53,167 bases of DNA from an uncultured Desulfobacteraceae bacterium (GTDB lineage: Bacteria; Desulfobacterota; Desulfobacteria; Desulfobacterales; Desulfobacteraceae): positions 1-53,167 of the forward strand of contig CAJWHT010000013.1 in assembly GCA_913041495.1 (NCBI GenBank), in the 5' to 3' direction. Of this stretch, positions 20,642-28,110 are shown piece by piece (the stretch's first letter is position 1; each line of letters begins with the position of its first letter). Under the pieces are notes generated by a model that saw nothing but the letters and a program-made list of their open reading frames with translations, was not told where the DNA came from and ran no database searches. The translations under genes were made by a program, and so were the position numbers.

Positions 20642-22825
20642 GTGGGGCATACCGCATCCAGAAAAAAACAAATTTTCTTTGTGGCTTTCTATCTGGCTCT
20701 GGCGATTTTCATATTGCTCAATTTCGGATCACAATCATACGGTCAGACAGACAAGGCCCCTCCACCGCCTGCATCAGGAAACAAGCATTGGAATGCGAAT
20801 GAGCACTGGGCCTGGCACCGGATTTTAAAAGGCGAAAAGGCGGATTTTAATCAGAAGTTTAATGAAGCACCCGATCCTGAGAATCGGTGTGAATGGTCAG
20901 ATCAAAGGCGGATAAGGCCTGCCTTCCTCGAGGAAATTCTTACAGACCGAACGTATTCAGAGAAAATCACCTCTGCCGGGGTCATGATTATCGGGGCGTG
21001 GATCAGAGAGCCCCTTGATCTATCCTCAGTGAATCTTTCCTTTCCGTTGTGGATTGACAAATCCCGAGTTGAGGGGGCCATCAGTTTTGAAGGCGCTGTA
21101 TTAAAAAGGCTTTTATCCTTGGATGGCAATTGCTTTTTAAACACGGTCAACCTGAATCAGATCAAGTCTTCAGATTCATTGGTTCTTAAAAGGTCGGTTT
21201 ATGAGCAGGACTTAACCATCCGGGGAACCACTGCCTGGCACTGCCGGTTATCAAAGGCAAGGGTTAAAGGTAGCTGCACTATTGAGGACTCCCTTTTCAG
21301 CGGCAATTTCATTAGTGAAGATTCTTTTTTTTCCTCTCTGGAACTGCGGGCCGTTGTTGACGGGGAATTACACCTTTATAACGCCGTCATTGACGGCGAT
21401 TTTGATTTGATCGGCAGCACCATCAAAAACGGTATTTTTTTCGATGATATCAAAGTCAGCGGAAAGGCCTTATGGAGCAGTCTCAATGCCCCAAACGGCA
21501 TGGCGGTCATAGGCGGAAGCCAAACCCGAATGAATTCCATTAATTTAAGCGGCGCATCCACCCAAAGGGATATTTCATTCTTTGGAAATGTTGCCGTCGA
21601 CGGGGACGTGAAGATCAATGGCGCAAGGGTTGACGGCGGCATAACCATGGGCGGGGCGGGCATAGATTTCAAACAGAGGTTGGAAATTAGCTTTACAACC
21701 GTCAAGGAGACCTTAAACCTGTCAGGATCAACATTCCGGCAGGTCCGCATAATCGGCTCCAATATTTCAGGTCTGATATATGGATCAGATGCGAATTTCG
21801 ATAGTTTAAACATCACTGACACCAATGTCGGGACAAGCCTTTATCTGGCCGATGCCGTATTTTCAAAGGGGCCTCTGACGATTCTCAGATCTGAGATCGG
21901 ACGTCACCTATACCTTGCAGGCATTGACATGAAGAGCAATGATGTTTCAATGCATTCCACCAAAACAAATGGTCATGTGATTATGTCTAATATCAAATGC
22001 CTGGGTGCGATTGACATGCGGTTTATGGACATTGGCGGCTATGTCAAACTCAGCGGCAGCCATTTAAAGCAATTGGACCTGTCAAACACAACCATTGATA
22101 ATGCACTTTTTCTCTGGGATAAAGACAATGGATTTATCACCTGGGAACCGTCCTCTGAAAAAAATAAATTTCCGATATTGAACCTGCGCAATACCACGGC
22201 CCGACTGCTTCAGGATCATCCAAAAGCCTGGCCCCGATCCATTGATCTTCTAAATTTTGGGTACCGTTTTTTTGGCTCCAGCGAAGCAATCGGCAGTAAA
22301 AATACCATATCAAACAGACCCGAGCGCTGGTTTGTCGAATGGCTGGAGAAAAGCGGGGATTATGAAAATGCAGAGCCCTACCATAAACAGGCCTATCTGC
22401 ATCTGTATAAAATCCTCAAGGGCATGGGATACAATAAAATCGCAAAAGAGATATTCATTGCCCACAATGATCGTAAAAAGGATAGTCCGTGCACCAAACC
22501 AGGTCAGAAGATCTGGTTATGGTGCCTTGATTTTTTTACCAGTTATGGCCAGGAAATGTGGCGGCTATCAGTTGCCGTATTCATACTCATTTTATCAGGG
22601 GCAGCGGTTCTAAAAATCAGCGGGGAAGGCAGACGGCATCGCATGCCATATGGCATCAGTCTTTCCATTGACCGCACCATCCCGCTGATATCCCTGGATA
22701 AAGCCTATGATGACATAAAGCTTCAGGGGATCACACGGTATTGGTTCTATTTCCTCCAGGTCGCAGGCTACTTTTTTGCCACCCTTCTGGTGGCATCGGT
22801 CATAAACATCTTTTCAAACGCTTAG
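20642..22825 (+). CDS. Beta-solenoid (degenerate pentapeptide-like) membrane protein with C-terminal channel-like region
   Basis: 727 residues from a GTG start chosen because AGGAGG (20630-20635) lies six bases before it; the ATG at 20588 has no such site. A signal/anchor segment (RKKQIFFVAFYLALAIFILLNF) is followed by ~450 residues of short strand repeats (for example GELHLYNAVIDGDFDLIGSTI, then LDLSNTTIDNALFL) that should form a right-handed beta-helix. Next is a helical module (YHKQAYLHLYKILKGMGYNKIAKEIFIAHNDRKK) like that of known pentapeptide-repeat membrane proteins, then a TM helix (SVAVFILILSGAAVL) and a C-terminal WFYFLQVAGYFFATLLVASVINIF. Those relatives end with a similar channel-like tail. 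It is the first gene of a five-gene cassette. Function unknown. Confidence 0.8.
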   Translation: MGHTASRKKQIFFVAFYLALAIFILLNFGSQSYGQTDKAPPPPASGNKHWNANEHWAWHRILKGEKADFNQKFNEAPDPENRCEWSDQRRIRPAFLEEILTDRTYSEKITSAGVMIIGAWIREPLDLSSVNLSFPLWIDKSRVEGAISFEGAVLKRLLSLDGNCFLNTVNLNQIKSSDSLVLKRSVYEQDLTIRGTTAWHCRLSKARVKGSCTIEDSLFSGNFISEDSFFSSLELRAVVDGELHLYNAVIDGDFDLIGSTIKNGIFFDDIKVSGKALWSSLNAPNGMAVIGGSQTRMNSINLSGASTQRDISFFGNVAVDGDVKINGARVDGGITMGGAGIDFKQRLEISFTTVKETLNLSGSTFRQVRIIGSNISGLIYGSDANFDSLNITDTNVGTSLYLADAVFSKGPLTILRSEIGRHLYLAGIDMKSNDVSMHSTKTNGHVIMSNIKCLGAIDMRFMDIGGYVKLSGSHLKQLDLSNTTIDNALFLWDKDNGFITWEPSSEKNKFPILNLRNTTARLLQDHPKAWPRSIDLLNFGYRFFGSSEAIGSKNTISNRPERWFVEWLEKSGDYENAEPYHKQAYLHLYKILKGMGYNKIAKEIFIAHNDRKKDSPCTKPGQKIWLWCLDFFTSYGQEMWRLSVAVFILILSGAAVLKISGEGRRHRMPYGISLSIDRTIPLISLDKAYDDIKLQGITRYWFYFLQVAGYFFATLLVASVINIFSNA

Positions 22826-22914
22826 GTTCAGGAACCTAGGATGATTGCCCTGCGCCAAAGGGCGCAAACCAGGGCGCATTGATGAACATCAACCATCATA
22901 AAAAAGGAGCTAAA

Positions 22915-24726
22915 ATGTTACCAGCAAGCCTCAGTGTCGATGTGGTATTCCTTGCCATCCGGTCTGCGGTAAAATTGGGCAGGCAAATGCGCGGTGTCTA
23001 CGTGGACAACCTCCGTAACAAAGCGTTGGCGCTTCCGTTTATTGAATTTCCCAGTGCGCCGGACTTTGCCTCTGCGGCCACCTTCTTTGAAGGAGACGGA
23101 AAGCAATATTTCGAATCCAGTCAAAGGGTTCAGGTGCTTTACAAAAAAGCCCTTAAAGGGACCATTGAACAAAGCAGCGAAGAAGGGCAGGAATTCATGC
23201 TGCTCTATGATGAATTCTGGGCCTTAAAGGTTTCAAGAGAAAAAGAGACGGTGGACCAGGGCATTGGCCGGCAGGAACTTGCCGATCTGATTTCCTATCG
23301 CCAGTGGAAAAGGGGGGGAGAGCAGAATCCATCTGCCCTGCAGCGGATCTCCGGTGCGCTGATCGAAATCGGCATTGATTACTTTGCCAATGTTCCCGGC
23401 GCGTTAAACGAAAAATCCGCCCATACAAAGGTCATAAAAGGCTTTTTAAAAGGGCTTGAAGACACCAATTTTTCAGAATCCGGCCTGGATGTCATTGCCC
23501 AGGATTTATTTGTCTCGGCCATTGAAGCGGTCTCTGAAAATCCTGAACTCCTGTCAGGTGATGAAAACGTTCAGGAGTTGGTCTGTGCGGTATCCAAAGG
23601 CATTGTCCAGGATGTCGAAAAAAAGATCAAGGAAATCCAGGACGGGCAAGGTGAAAACCTGGTCATTGAAGAGCGGATCCAGGGCTGGGCCAACATCGTT
23701 TTTAAATCCGTATTAACCCATTCCGGCCAGACAGTCCTCTCCCATCCCAATAAATTCCTTGGAATTCCGGAAGGCGAGGAATCCGAAATGATAACAGCCG
23801 TGGGCAACGTGCTGCTTGACGGCCTGATCACGGAGAATGGCGTGGATATTGGCGGCATGTTTGATAGAGCCTCTCTGGACAAAGTCACCCAGGCCGCATT
23901 GACCACGCTGGCCAAGTATCCGGAATTGGTTACGGACGGCAACGAAGGCTTGAAACAGATGGTTTCCGGGGTGGCCCTGGAGTTGTCTGAATCTTCAAAA
24001 TCAATCGATGCTGACCTGCTTCCTGAAGTGATGCGGCTGATCTTATTAAAAACCGGAGAAAATATGGAGGCCATTTGGCCTCAGGGGTCAGAGGATCCCC
24101 AAAAACACCTGTTGATCACTGCGGCAAAACACACCCTGGAAGCCATCGCTGCAAAACCTGAAAATGCTGAAGAGAACTGGGTGCCTGTGCTTAAAGGGGA
24201 GGATGCAAAAGAAATTTTAACCGTTGTCCTTGATGAAGTGATTCAGAATCCGGAATGGCTTTACCGGGATTCCGAAGAAATTTCCCCTGTGATCCGCACG
24301 GCACTGGAAGCCGCCTTTGAATCTTTGAATAAAATTAAAAAAGAAAACCGTCTGGCCCCGGATACCATAAAAAGCATATTGAACTCTGCCCTAAAGGCCG
24401 TGGCCATGCGCAAGGCATTTGCCGACCAGATTCCAATTGATGACACCGGGGATAAAAAATATTTGATTACATTTGTCCTGGATATGATTTTTGATTTGAT
24501 CTTCGAAAATCAGGACACGGCAAAAGCTCGATGGGTCATGGCACGGGGCAACGTCCTCAATATCCTGGTGGATGCCGTATTCAATAAAATAGCTGTTGAC
24601 GGCATTTCCAGGGACAGGATTCAAAAGATCAAGCAGATCATAGAACAGGCCATGATCCGGTACGGAAATGGTGAGCGGTTTTCCATAGAAGACATTGTAG
24701 CTCAGATCAATCAGGTCACCCCATAA
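22915..24726 (+). CDS. Large alpha-helical repeat protein of unknown function
   Basis: 603 residues; the ATG at 22915 has AAGGAG (22903-22908) upstream and is preferred to the ATG at 22879. The protein is acidic and almost wholly helical, with degenerate repeats of about 60-80 residues whose units end in a pattern like LxxVLxxVIxNPELL or ALTTLAKYPELV. It has no signal peptide, but a hydrophobic amphipathic N-terminus (MLPASLSVDVVFLAIRSAVKLG) could touch the membrane. No catalytic motif is visible. I do not recognise a family. Gaps to its neighbours are 89 and 14 bases, so it belongs to the cassette with the solenoid protein and the lipoprotein. Confidence 0.75.
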   Translation: MLPASLSVDVVFLAIRSAVKLGRQMRGVYVDNLRNKALALPFIEFPSAPDFASAATFFEGDGKQYFESSQRVQVLYKKALKGTIEQSSEEGQEFMLLYDEFWALKVSREKETVDQGIGRQELADLISYRQWKRGGEQNPSALQRISGALIEIGIDYFANVPGALNEKSAHTKVIKGFLKGLEDTNFSESGLDVIAQDLFVSAIEAVSENPELLSGDENVQELVCAVSKGIVQDVEKKIKEIQDGQGENLVIEERIQGWANIVFKSVLTHSGQTVLSHPNKFLGIPEGEESEMITAVGNVLLDGLITENGVDIGGMFDRASLDKVTQAALTTLAKYPELVTDGNEGLKQMVSGVALELSESSKSIDADLLPEVMRLILLKTGENMEAIWPQGSEDPQKHLLITAAKHTLEAIAAKPENAEENWVPVLKGEDAKEILTVVLDEVIQNPEWLYRDSEEISPVIRTALEAAFESLNKIKKENRLAPDTIKSILNSALKAVAMRKAFADQIPIDDTGDKKYLITFVLDMIFDLIFENQDTAKARWVMARGNVLNILVDAVFNKIAVDGISRDRIQKIKQIIEQAMIRYGNGERFSIEDIVAQINQVTP

Positions 24727-24740
24727 TCAGGAGGATTTAA

Positions 24741-25577
24741 ATGAGCCCTTTAAAAAAAATAAACAGCCGGTCAATTGGCTGCTGGATAGCGCAGGCCTTT
24801 GTTCTTGTCTCCATTTTGCTTATCAGCGGGTGCCAAAGCTATCTGGCCGATTATTCTTCCGCCCAGAAGCATTTTGACACGGCCTCCCAGCTTCAGGCCA
24901 GCAAGGTCTTTGAACCGGTCCTGACCCGGAACCTGGGGGATGAGTCCATCGCATATAATCAGATTCATTCCCACTATGCTGTGGCATTAAAGCTGATTTC
25001 AGAAGTCATTGATACCCATGAAAAAGAGCTGAAACAAGACCAGCTGCTGGGAAATGCATTTACCATTAAAGCCATTTCCCAATGGAAACTGGGACAGACA
25101 AAAGACGCCCTGTCCACGAAAAAGCAGGCATTGGAAAACCAGCAACTGCTCTATCCCCGTGACAAAGCATTGATGACGGCGCTTCCGGGCCTGATCAAGG
25201 CGGAACAGGCCAATTCAAAACGGCTGAACAAGGAACCATACCTGGGGACCTTAGGCATAAGAGAGATGATCCTTGGCGGCAATGGTGCCATGAACGATTT
25301 CAACATGGCGCTCAAGGCGCTGGATCAGAAGCACCCGGTCCGGATTTATATCATCATGACCCAAATTGCATCCATTCGAATCCTGCATTCAGCAACCCTC
25401 TTAATCCCGGATTTAACAATACAAAAAGAGGAGAGAACGGATTTGATAGAAACCTATTTCAAACCCTTGAGGAAAGAATTGATCACATTGCTCAAAGAGT
25501 TTGAAATTTACGGGGAATCATCGAGCGAGAATCTGCTGTTATATTTCAACAGGATATTTGGGAGCGGGCCCGATTAA
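24741..25577 (+). CDS. Lipoprotein of the accessory cassette
   Basis: 278 residues. A signal peptide with hydrophobic core AFVLVSILLI and lipobox LISGC directs lipid attachment at about C31. The rest is helical and TPR-like in spacing (SAQKHFDTASQLQ, then NAFTIKAISQWKLGQTKDALSTKKQALENQ). AGGAGG lies before the ATG, 14 bases after the helical-repeat gene. Probably anchored in the periplasmic leaflet of a membrane; function unknown. The TPR reading is by pattern only. Confidence 0.82.
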   Translation: MSPLKKINSRSIGCWIAQAFVLVSILLISGCQSYLADYSSAQKHFDTASQLQASKVFEPVLTRNLGDESIAYNQIHSHYAVALKLISEVIDTHEKELKQDQLLGNAFTIKAISQWKLGQTKDALSTKKQALENQQLLYPRDKALMTALPGLIKAEQANSKRLNKEPYLGTLGIREMILGGNGAMNDFNMALKALDQKHPVRIYIIMTQIASIRILHSATLLIPDLTIQKEERTDLIETYFKPLRKELITLLKEFEIYGESSSENLLLYFNRIFGSGPD

Positions 25578-25616
25578 AGCCCCGTCTTTTTAACGCTTTC
25601 CGATGGAGGATAAATC

Positions 25617-26585
25617 ATGCTTGAATCACTGGATGTTATGATTTCACTGGGCGTCATCTTCCTTGTACTGAGCATGGCGCAAAAATACGTTATGAGCCTG
25701 ATCAAACGCCTGCTGAGCACCAAAGCAGAGGTGGTGTCTAAAGAAATGAAAACCTTTATGGGTGAAAAGACATCACAATTTCTGGAATCCTATGTAAAAC
25801 ACCAGGCCCAGCATCTGAATGTATTTGAAAAAAAGAGACTCGGTGACGGTCAAAGATTCCGCCTGCTGACGGCCCCGGAAGTCAAACAGGTGGCCTGCGA
25901 GTTGACACGATTTCTGAACTCCGATGCCATTGAAGTCCTTAAAAAGGATCTGGGCATGGAGAACCGATCAGATTTTGCAAAAGATCTTGATATTGTGAAA
26001 AAGCACCTGGACTCTCTTCAAACCAAAGCGGACACCCTGTTTGAAAATACACTGAGAAAAATTGAGGACAGCTATAAAAGTAAAATGCGGGCCTGGACAT
26101 TCTTTGTTGCATTTGCCCTGGTCATTGTGATGAATGCCAGTTTTTTCGACATTTATAACCGCATTTCGAGCAATGGCGCGCTCCGGGGCAAGCTGGTTAA
26201 CAGCACAGAATCCATCATGGATCGATTCGATACCGTGGAAAAGGAGATGGCGGAACTGGACCAGGCCCAGATTAAAAATTACACGCAGGAAGTGCAGGGG
26301 GTAAAAACAAAAATTGCCGATCTGACTCAGCTTATCGAAGAGAACCAAACCTTTTTCGGATGGGATAAAAAGAAATGGGATGATCTTCGTGGTTGGAAGA
26401 TACTCAATAAAGTGGTCGGGTTCCTGATATCAGCGCTTCTCATGAGTTTTGGGGCACCGTTCTGGCATGATTATCTGTCAACCTTTGTCAATATCCGCAA
26501 GGTTGTGGCCCGAAGATCCGAACAGTCCCAGGCGGCTGCCCCCCCCGCAGCAGTATCAACAGCCCCGGGAGGATGGCTTCCCTGA
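25617..26585 (+). CDS. Membrane protein with N-terminal TM and central coiled coil
   Basis: 322 residues. TM1 at the N-terminus (MISLGVIFLVLSMAQKYV), a cytoplasmic or periplasmic helical region (~30-155), TM2 (WTFFVAFALVIVMNASFF), a coiled coil (VEKEMAELDQAQIKNYTQEVQGVKTKIADL), then TM3 (VVGFLISALLMSFGAPFWHDYLS) and an Ala/Pro-rich tail. The TM3 region GFLISALLMSFGAPFWHD recalls a short motif seen in several bacterial membrane proteins of unknown function. GGAGG precedes the ATG; the gap to the lipoprotein gene is 39 bases. Likely a scaffold of the cassette's envelope complex, but that is inference. Confidence 0.8.
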   Translation: MLESLDVMISLGVIFLVLSMAQKYVMSLIKRLLSTKAEVVSKEMKTFMGEKTSQFLESYVKHQAQHLNVFEKKRLGDGQRFRLLTAPEVKQVACELTRFLNSDAIEVLKKDLGMENRSDFAKDLDIVKKHLDSLQTKADTLFENTLRKIEDSYKSKMRAWTFFVAFALVIVMNASFFDIYNRISSNGALRGKLVNSTESIMDRFDTVEKEMAELDQAQIKNYTQEVQGVKTKIADLTQLIEENQTFFGWDKKKWDDLRGWKILNKVVGFLISALLMSFGAPFWHDYLSTFVNIRKVVARRSEQSQAAAPPAAVSTAPGGWLP

Positions 26586-26629
26586 ATGTAAAATGCGTTT
26601 ATCAGGACACCACAGATAAGGAGGCAGGT

Positions 26630-27520
26630 ATGCGATTTACAATTGGCAGCAAAGGAGAAGAGGTTAAAAGCGTTCAGGAGATTCTAAAGCAGCTGGGATA
26701 CGGCCCGGGGCCAATAGACGGATGGTTCGGAGAGAAAACCGAGAAAGCGGTGGTGCAGTTTCAGGAGGAAAACGATCTCTATGCCGATGGCATCGTCGGC
26801 CCCACAACCTGGAAGGGGCTTCACCAGGCCGTGAAGATTCATATGGATGAGCAAATGCCGCTGCTGACCGGAAATGCTGCCCCGCCGGATTTAATGCCCT
26901 GGGTGAGGGTTCCTTCAGATAAATACCGGGATGGATATGACCGTTTCTTTCTGAGAGAGGACGCGGCCAAGGCCTATTTGCAGGTTCGGGAAAGAGTCGT
27001 GGAGGCCGGGGGAATCTTAACCAGCTCCGGTGCCAGAAGATCTCTCAACGCCAGGGTCAGTGCCTCCCGCAGTGCAACGTCATTCCATTATACGGGTATG
27101 GCCCTGGATCTGTTTGTCGGCAGCGGCATGGAAAATAGGACAAGGGATCCATTTGTCGTGACGCCTGATGGAGACCGTTACTGGCGGGTTTATGTCCGGG
27201 CACCCGGCGGGGATGCCATGGAGATTGATGCGGTCACTTACGGCTCACGAAAAACAGGCAGGACGGTGTCCGATCATTTTCTTGATCTGACAGCGCTGTT
27301 CAGATCCGCAGGATTTAAGCGAATCAGGGCCAGAAAATCCTTTTTCACAGGCGGCACATGGTTGGGGGCTGAGTGGTGGCATTTTCAATATGAAAAACCA
27401 CTGGAAAAAGGTGTATCCACCTTTGGAGACCAATTGCTCAAAGTCTATTCGGAAAATGAAATAAGAGACACGCCGCCGTGGAAATACAGGGATAGGGTAT
27501 TTGGGATCAATTGGTTTTGA
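26630..27520 (+). CDS. Peptidoglycan-binding M15-type metallopeptidase
   Basis: 296 residues from the ATG at 26630 (AGGAGG nine bases upstream; preferred to 26573, which overlaps the previous gene). An N-terminal PG_binding_1 domain (~5-68; GEEVKSVQEILKQLGYGPGPIDGWFG, then AVVQFQEENDL, then DGIVGPTTW) is followed by a D-Ala-D-Ala/LAS-type zinc peptidase domain: SFHYTGMALD (H153, D160 of the HxxGxAxD motif) and EWWHFQY (E248, H251). M15-like enzymes cut peptidoglycan peptides. No signal peptide is evident, so it would need export by another route or act on lysis, as phage endolysins do. It ends the cassette. Confidence 0.88.
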   Translation: MRFTIGSKGEEVKSVQEILKQLGYGPGPIDGWFGEKTEKAVVQFQEENDLYADGIVGPTTWKGLHQAVKIHMDEQMPLLTGNAAPPDLMPWVRVPSDKYRDGYDRFFLREDAAKAYLQVRERVVEAGGILTSSGARRSLNARVSASRSATSFHYTGMALDLFVGSGMENRTRDPFVVTPDGDRYWRVYVRAPGGDAMEIDAVTYGSRKTGRTVSDHFLDLTALFRSAGFKRIRARKSFFTGGTWLGAEWWHFQYEKPLEKGVSTFGDQLLKVYSENEIRDTPPWKYRDRVFGINWF

Positions 27521-27561
27521 TTGGGGGTGTTTCCAAAATCAGCTAAGTTATAAGAGTCTTG

Positions 27562-27575
27562 CATCAACGTTGATG
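27562..27575. repeat. 14-bp perfect palindrome downstream of the cassette
   Basis: CATCAACGTTGATG lies 42 bases after the peptidase stop. There is no T-run, so it is not a typical terminator. It could be a protein-binding site or chance. The surrounding 27521-27725 is AT-rich with no gene. Confidence 0.4.
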
Positions 27576-27729
27576 ATCAAAATAATTATGTGGTTTTACG
27601 ATATCTATCAACGGAATGAGTAATTTCAATGCGTTTACTCATGGTATAAGTCCTGCTTCTTGATAGTTCAGAAAAAATCAAGCACTATCGCTGTCAGTCC
27701 ACATCATTTTTGGGGAAATTTTACCGGAT

Positions 27730-27945
27730 AGCAAACCCGGAGGACCAGGCAGCCGGTGCCGTGTAGGCCCGGAACGGCGTGAGATTACGCGGGGCGTCAT
27801 ACCCCAAGGGCAGAAGCCGGACAGACAGACCCGTGAATCTCCGCTATTCCGGCGATCACGACGATTGCCGGAATATTAGTGGAGGGTCCCGCGGGGCCGA
27901 CTGCCGGGTAGATGACTCGGCCGGTGGCAAAACCTTAATCCACCG
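27730..27945 (+). ncRNA. Candidate structured RNA (HEARO/omega-RNA-like, orphan)
   Basis: A GC-rich island in AT-rich DNA with many consistent stems on the plus strand: GCCGT/ACGGC (27758-27762/27774-27778), GAGATT/AATCTC (27781-27786/27836-27841) enclosing GGGG/CCCC (27791-27794/27802-27805), a 9-bp TATTCCGGC/GCCGGAATA stem (27845-27853/27867-27875), GGCCGA/TCGGCC (27895-27900/27917-27922) and GGTGG/CCACC (27923-27927/27940-27944). All frames are interrupted. The layout and some of the wording remind me of HEARO RNAs, which accompany IscB-type transposon nucleases, but no IscB gene follows. Strand and family are uncertain; that it is a structured RNA is more secure. Confidence 0.5.
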
Positions 27946-27952
27946 CCAACAT

Positions 27953-27989
27953 TTCCAACGACATTCTCCCCTATAAAATACCGTTGGAA
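27953..27989. repeat. 8-bp inverted repeat after the structured RNA
   Basis: TTCCAACG (27953-27960) and CGTTGGAA (27982-27989) flank a 21-base AT-rich spacer. It could be the end of the RNA element or a weak terminator. Bases 27990-28110 hold nothing I can name. Confidence 0.4.
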
Positions 27990-28110
27990 CAGTGCTGGCG
28001 CATGATCTCACACGAATCATACCCGACGAATACAAGGAACGGTATTAGATCCGGTCTTAATCCAGAAAACTGGCCAGGGAAGTCAACATGATTTTGCGCC
28101 AGGAGGCATA

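Follow-up and report, generated by a model that had tools for sequence, protein, structure and literature searches.

The stretch analysed here (the window) comprises 53,167 nucleotides of an uncultured Desulfobacteraceae bacterium (contig CAJWHT010000013.1 of assembly GCA_913041495.1) and carries, at positions 20642-27520 of the + strand, five co-directional open reading frames (ORFs) that we call A to E. The conserved part of this locus is a core of two genes, B and C, usually joined by a third, D, and beside this core lies one exchangeable hydrolase gene, which in the window is E. The core is real, rare and apparently undescribed in the open-access literature searched, outside which most subscription papers fall. 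An initial annotation of the window had described the five genes as one envelope cassette without known counterpart. Its picture of undescribed families accompanied by a peptidoglycan enzyme that lacks a signal peptide, and recurring in other genomes, held up, and the envelope idea is partly supported. The five-gene unit was rejected: A lies beside no other core in view, and the peptidase proved to be one of several interchangeable hydrolases. When co-occurrence was checked as that annotation had proposed, B and C, usually with D, were found together in other genomes and A was not. Because they recur together at low sequence identity (16-35% between B of the window and its relatives), B, C and D are more than chance neighbours. 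Our working interpretation, for which the chance seems to us a little short of even, is that this is a lysis or wall-opening cassette, which would work like holin-endolysin-spanin sets but is built of unrelated parts.

Gene B (22915-24726, + strand) encodes a core component of 603 residues that belongs to no known family in Pfam, NCBIfam, PHROGs or PADLOC searches. More generally, none of B, C and D reached a Pfam or NCBIfam cut-off, giving only weak sub-threshold matches, and PHROGs and PADLOC searches with A to E returned nothing convincing for these three. The structural model of B was all-helical but weak (predicted local distance difference test score, pLDDT, 63) and gave no Foldseek match at an E-value of 0.001. 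Profile searches of the PDB with B and D returned a designed repeat (E-value 0.09), a SAM synthase (E-value 0.0013) and coiled coils, which were taken as chance matches. B has no clear transmembrane (TM) segment, residues 1-19 of the window copy being barely over the threshold (1.62 versus 1.6) and a borderline internal hydrophobic stretch being present in three of seven other copies, and the protein is predicted to be cytoplasmic.

B was found in 11 distinct genomes of two phyla, that of the window included, the genome samples searched being overlapping ones. With B as a single query, matches came from 3 of 297 genomes in the phylum, again including the window's own, and growing profiles matched 3 of 145 relatives (one later dropped), 6 of 291 genomes of the class and 6 of 321 of the order. 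A scan of genome contigs with a two-row B alignment found two Nitrospirota contigs and, once more, the Thermodesulfobacteriota contig of genome G071; among 245 Nitrospirota genomes the B profile matched one, the centre genome itself. A match in genome G428 (E-value 4.7e-4) was dropped when a deeper profile did not confirm it. Among the same-genus genomes searched, B was present only in G309, where it is broken into frames: at L027:6987-9632 both B and C are split into several frames, whereas D and the lysozyme gene are uninterrupted. This copy may be decaying or may reflect sequencing error. The initial annotation had named two findings that would count against a cassette, genes lying apart among unrelated neighbours and identity with a known phage or secretion module; neither was found for B and C, and B had no match in 50,697 phage records, 72,556 plasmid records or two scans of viral contigs.

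Gene C (24741-25577, + strand, 278 residues) encodes a predicted lipoprotein with a TPR-like helical fold. It carries the lipobox ISGC with Gln at position +2, and a lipobox was present in all eight C proteins scanned, with Asp at +2 in none. A sub-threshold match was to TPR_12 (E-value 0.006), and a model (pLDDT 78.7) aligned with TPR-like chains at Z-scores up to 13.7, values also met among unrelated helical repeats; Foldseek gave no match at an E-value of 0.001, with TPR and 14-3-3 chains ranking top. C lies directly after B in 10 of the 10 genomes with that side in view, separated by 7-15 base pairs (bp) in the eight genomes measured, and is split into two frames in loci L007 and L027. Whatever enzyme adjoins them, the C proteins can be aligned as a single family, with 13-28% identity to C of the window.

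A predicted envelope hydrolase was a direct same-strand neighbour of the core in seven of the nine loci with readable flanks. Left out of this count were G003, where the contig ends inside B, and L006, where it ends inside D and C; L027 was included despite its broken B and C. The enzymes differ from locus to locus: PG_binding_1 with an M15-like domain in the window (E), Amidase_3 in L007 (E-value 1.2e-28), Lipase_3 in L004 (E-value 1.7e-31), DUF6765 in L013 (E-value 6.2e-91), phage lysozyme (GH24) with PG_binding_1 and C39_2 in L027, PG_binding_1 with CHAP in L028, and patatin in L060 (E-value 3.7e-29, 576 bp away). A sub-threshold match to zinc phospholipase (E-value 0.023) suggests that DUF6765 is possibly such an enzyme. 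The B proteins of L004 and L060 are 75% identical, yet the enzymes beside them are Lipase_3 and patatin. A gene of 405 residues directly after C in L060 (5986-7203), which had no Pfam match and was not counted, looked by eye as though it may be another wall enzyme. For comparison, wall or glycoside hydrolases made up 2 of 139 genes by product name in three plasmid stretches, where two more genes were ambiguous (alkaline-phosphatase-family and alpha/beta hydrolase). At 4% per locus the probability of at least seven of nine loci is about 5e-9, and at 8% about 7e-7, figures that are a guide only, the background having been scored by names and the loci by Pfam, and the loci being related. Hydropathy scans found an N-terminal signal or TM segment in none of 13 enzymes, namely the seven of the counted loci, the uncounted L060 gene and five that lie beside plasmid relatives of D.

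Such a repertoire could also belong to an antibacterial effector set, in which a secretion machine would deliver the hydrolase into rivals with C as immunity protein and B and D as adaptor and membrane partner. We consider this unlikely. Immunity proteins are usually enzyme-specific, but C appears to belong to one family whatever the enzyme. Delivery into rivals is also made less likely because markers of the relevant machines occur in few carriers: of 10 carriers searched for these two markers, 2 have the type VI secretion system (T6SS) sheath protein VipB (PF05943) and 1 has the type IV secretion system (T4SS) protein TrbI (PF03743), and neither marker is in the window's genome (G000, an assembly of 328 contigs). 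With the markers missing from most carriers, T6SS or T4SS effectors were rejected as a general explanation. What speaks for delivery is that Lipase_3, PG-binding and wall hydrolases with lipoprotein partners resemble the X-T4SS effector-immunity pairs described in PMC6536674.

Gene D (25617-26585, + strand, 322 residues) is predicted to encode a three-TM coiled-coil membrane protein with a C-terminal GAPFW motif. It adjoins B and C in 7 of 10 loci, in the order B-C-D in the window and L025 and in the order D-B-C in L006, L007, L026, L027 and L028. The hydrophobic segments of the window protein lie at residues 1-19, 161-179 and 262-280, and three segments at like places were present in all eight D proteins scanned. 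Because positive residues follow TM1 and TM3, we suggest an N-out layout in which the part between TM1 and TM2 would be cytoplasmic and the coiled coil between TM2 and TM3 periplasmic. Its sub-threshold matches were CT_584-like (E-value 5e-5) and a 46-residue coiled-coil match to a CorA-like PADLOC entry (E-value 1.4e-6). The latter was the sole PADLOC match among A to E, none of which gave a convincing defence match; the neighbours of the cassette were outside that scan.

Profile comparison with hhalign joined the cassette D proteins to plasmid-encoded proteins with GAPFWFD, PxGW and N-x-[DN] motifs (99.8%, E-value 7e-29), and D of the window alone was joined to the same plasmid family at 98.8% (E-value 7e-17). 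D thus appears to be part of a wider undescribed membrane family, whose scanned members had no Pfam match over the cut-off. Twelve plasmid records with a D relative were found, of which eight were viewed and four were not. A hydrolase was the direct neighbour of D in four of the eight: Hydrolase_2 in R. phaseoli, Amidase_2 with PG_binding_1 in Caballeronia and Hymenobacter, and patatin in Rhizobium NXC14. On a Nostoc plasmid a glycoside hydrolase lies some genes from D, and on that of Vitreoscilla there is no hydrolase by D. The D-family genes of R. rosettiformans (L061:4022-6903) and Paracoccus (L068:3373-6906) have a neighbourhood in common, in which two hypothetical genes precede a vanadium-dependent haloperoxidase gene; the haloperoxidase adjoins D in the former and is three genes from D in the latter. 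The Caballeronia (L064:6001-7272) and Hymenobacter (L067:6001-7194) proteins share a C-terminal tail, LPAAxGGV, that is absent in shorter D proteins and is perhaps a processing or recognition tag. The window's genome itself holds a second D-family gene (contig C67, L042:10015-11130), which has no B or C beside it and follows TRAP-transporter-like genes.

The window enzyme, E (26630-27520, + strand), is a protein of 296 residues in which PG_binding_1 (E-value 2.7e-19, Pfam) is followed by a putative M15-like peptidase domain, and it has no N-terminal hydrophobic segment. The motifs SxHYxGxAxD (Gly in at least 90%) and EWWHF are kept across 14 aligned sequences and correspond to SxHxxGxAxD ... 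ExWH, which we take to be the M15 zinc-site motif. The catalytic half reached no Pfam family up to an E-value of 10 and no PDB chain up to an E-value of 1, and BLASTP against an M15_4 protein gave only an E-value of 0.008 over 43 residues that include the motif. Because no M15 profile or PDB chain was reached, the protein is called M15-like by motif, and its catalytic activity is assumed from the same motif. Viral contigs contain 33 relatives of the catalytic half, 42-48% identical to it, and five of six such relatives inspected have a PG-binding-like stretch ahead of it; two that were scanned matched endolysin PHROGs through that stretch. Matches to the PG-binding half of E are numerous among phage records, and a search of plasmid records with E found nothing.

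The virus-like catalytic half of E, together with an AT-rich cassette beside gene-poor flanks, is what a remnant prophage lysis module, or a set of chance neighbours, might look like. This seems to us very improbable: B was found neither in phages nor in viral contigs, the cassette-D profile had no confirmed relative in viral contigs and the plasmid D none in phage records, the frames are open in the window and the gene set recurs in two phyla. As the initial annotation had it, the five ORFs are co-directional, closely spaced, each preceded by a ribosome site (GGAG-like) and AT-richer than their surroundings, with a G+C content of 46-52% for A to E versus 54-62% in the hisD, MFS and pst genes of the window. 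Their flanks hold no assigned gene: 714 bp upstream of A (37% G+C), within which a longer TTG/ATG reading of A begins, and 590 bp downstream of E (49% G+C). The starts and spacing that had been given stand for A to D (gaps of 89 bp for A-B, 14 bp for B-C and 39 bp for C-D); for E, ATG 26630 is more likely the start than ATG 26573, because the former has a well-spaced ggagg at 26620, while the latter overlaps D, and the D-E gap would then be 44 bp. A GC-rich, structured-looking region lies at 27540-28110, between E and pstB; Rfam gave no family for the cassette and its flank, and no match to this region even at an E-value of 1. A scan for promoters and terminators did no better than on shuffled sequences. 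Synteny around hisD was compared in six same-genus genomes; the stretches fetched contained neither MFS nor pst genes, so that no empty site could be shown.

Gene A (20642-22825, + strand, GTG start, 727 residues) encodes a predicted pentapeptide-like beta-solenoid protein, with a Pentapeptide_3 match barely past the Pfam cut-off (E-value 2.6e-6) and hydrophobic segments at residues 11-29 near the N-terminus and 642-660 and 707-725 near the C-terminus. Among 117 genomes of the class only that of the window has A, and relatives were found in 11 plasmid records, of which six were viewed (one of them without annotation) and five were not. Trypsin, caspase or Trypco1 genes lie near the A relative in three of the six. 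The three are a Mesorhizobium plasmid with an annotated trypsin-like gene, an S. meliloti plasmid with TIGR02594, C1 peptidase and caspase genes (and two hypothetical genes between), and an Acaryochloris plasmid with Trypco1, where the match covers 39% of A. On the Acaryochloris plasmid (L058:6522-7888) the short A relative directly follows the Trypco1 gene, and a caspase gene lies a few genes on. Two Streptomyces neighbourhoods of A relatives contained no trypsin, caspase or Trypco-type genes. We regard A as an add-on outside the conserved core with a possible role in conflict.

These neighbourhoods bear on the idea that the locus is an immune-like cell-death module, which would sense infection and turn the envelope enzyme on its own cell to kill it, serving as an effector arm tied to trypsin/caspase conflict networks. 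Besides the three A records, the Hymenobacter relative of D, which is flanked by nuclease, amidase and S8 peptidase genes, is in keeping with it, and precedents exist in EAD1 systems with lysozyme effectors (PMC7159879) and in LypABC lysis (PMC13236601). But the cassette has no Trypco, and by Pfam no NTPase, trypsin or caspase was found among A to E, and the core recurs without A, so that we think such a module improbable.

We return to the lysis or wall-opening interpretation, to which we were led because the gene set recurs, the enzymes lack signal peptides, C has a lipobox, D has its TM layout and the predicted peptidoglycan or lipid enzymes are exchanged. In it, B, C and usually D would form a conserved envelope-spanning assembly, which would control a single hydrolase that is encoded next to them and synthesized in the cytoplasm. 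The enzyme (here E), having no signal peptide, would remain cytoplasmic, its probable companions there being B and the cytosolic portion of D. On some trigger D (or, at loci that lack D, some other membrane protein) might pass the enzyme across the inner membrane in the manner of a holin, and the lipoprotein C, on the periplasmic side, could couple this break to the wall and the outer membrane. The cell would thereby lyse, or its own envelope would be opened locally. Cytoplasmic wall enzymes that are let out through a membrane protein have a precedent in holin/endolysin secretion (PMC9527704).

Several observations weigh against this interpretation. No D was found beside the B-C pairs of L004 and L060 in the fetched stretch, and L013 has in its place a different three-TM protein that hhalign showed to be unrelated. 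L025 and L026 are without a hydrolase beside the core. No activity is known for DUF6765, whose link to phospholipases falls below the cut-off, and a lipase in the cytoplasm might need no export to act on the inner membrane. Searches of Pfam and PHROGs found no holin family for D and no spanin family for either C or D. Finally, in a pre-declared test on six chromosomal D loci outside the cassette, drawn from the phylum, wall hydrolases or phospholipases were neighbours in none (0/6). The test covered 12 direct neighbours, nine scanned with Pfam and three judged by eye, and one second neighbour was also scanned. At one of these loci (L117) a neighbour looked C1-peptidase-like by eye, without a Pfam match, and the gene two places from D had a sub-threshold S1-P1 nuclease match (E-value 3.4e-5). 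On this result we rejected a hydrolase neighbour as a feature of all D genes. The hydrolase link is therefore firm for the B-C loci and is seen at some plasmid D genes, and it does not extend to the D family at large.

A more specific proposal, possible though rather doubtful in our estimation, is that B, D and C are the constant chassis, reaching from cytoplasm to periplasm, of a previously undescribed envelope-breaking machine. The chassis would take up any wall- or lipid-cutting enzyme whose gene adjoins the core and, when signalled, export it independently of Sec, known holins, T4SS and T6SS; D would be a branch of a broad membrane family that on some plasmids sits beside amidases, a cell-wall hydrolase and patatin. 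If this were true, no known holin or secretion machine would be needed to bring a folded hydrolase from the cytoplasm to the wall, and the D membrane family would gain its first functional setting. Close relatives carry different enzymes, which makes the proposal testable, as one core should work with peptidase, lysozyme or lipase. The cassette might instead be a non-lytic aid to secretion that loosens the wall locally for another product, similar to type 10 secretion (T10SS). T10SS, according to PMC9527704, joins a membrane protein to a wall enzyme without a Sec signal, a layout like that of D and E. The cores, however, have no cargo gene in common among the neighbours seen, and neither lipases nor patatin would open the wall; we judge this reading to have little chance.

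Compared with known systems, the cassette is closest in layout to holin-endolysin-spanin sets and T10SS. It shares with these a wall enzyme without a Sec signal that adjoins an inner-membrane protein and a lipoprotein, and the catalytic half of E is related to genes of viral contigs; its D and C are larger, a helical B of about 600 residues is added and its enzyme may be a lipase. Because D and C fail the tests for holins and spanins, the cassette is not a member of these sets. With the X-T4SS and T6SS effector-immunity pairs it has in common the enzyme repertoire and the lipoprotein partner, but its C is one family beside varied enzymes, B and D are core proteins and most carriers lack the markers searched. 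The conflict systems of the EAD/Trypco and CARD-NLR type (Kaur et al. 2020; LypABC) likewise combine a constant core with varying effectors, some of them directed against peptidoglycan, and some A and D relatives lie near such genes. The cassette differs from them in having no NTPase, trypsin, caspase or Trypco of its own, and in having three core proteins that fall in no known family.

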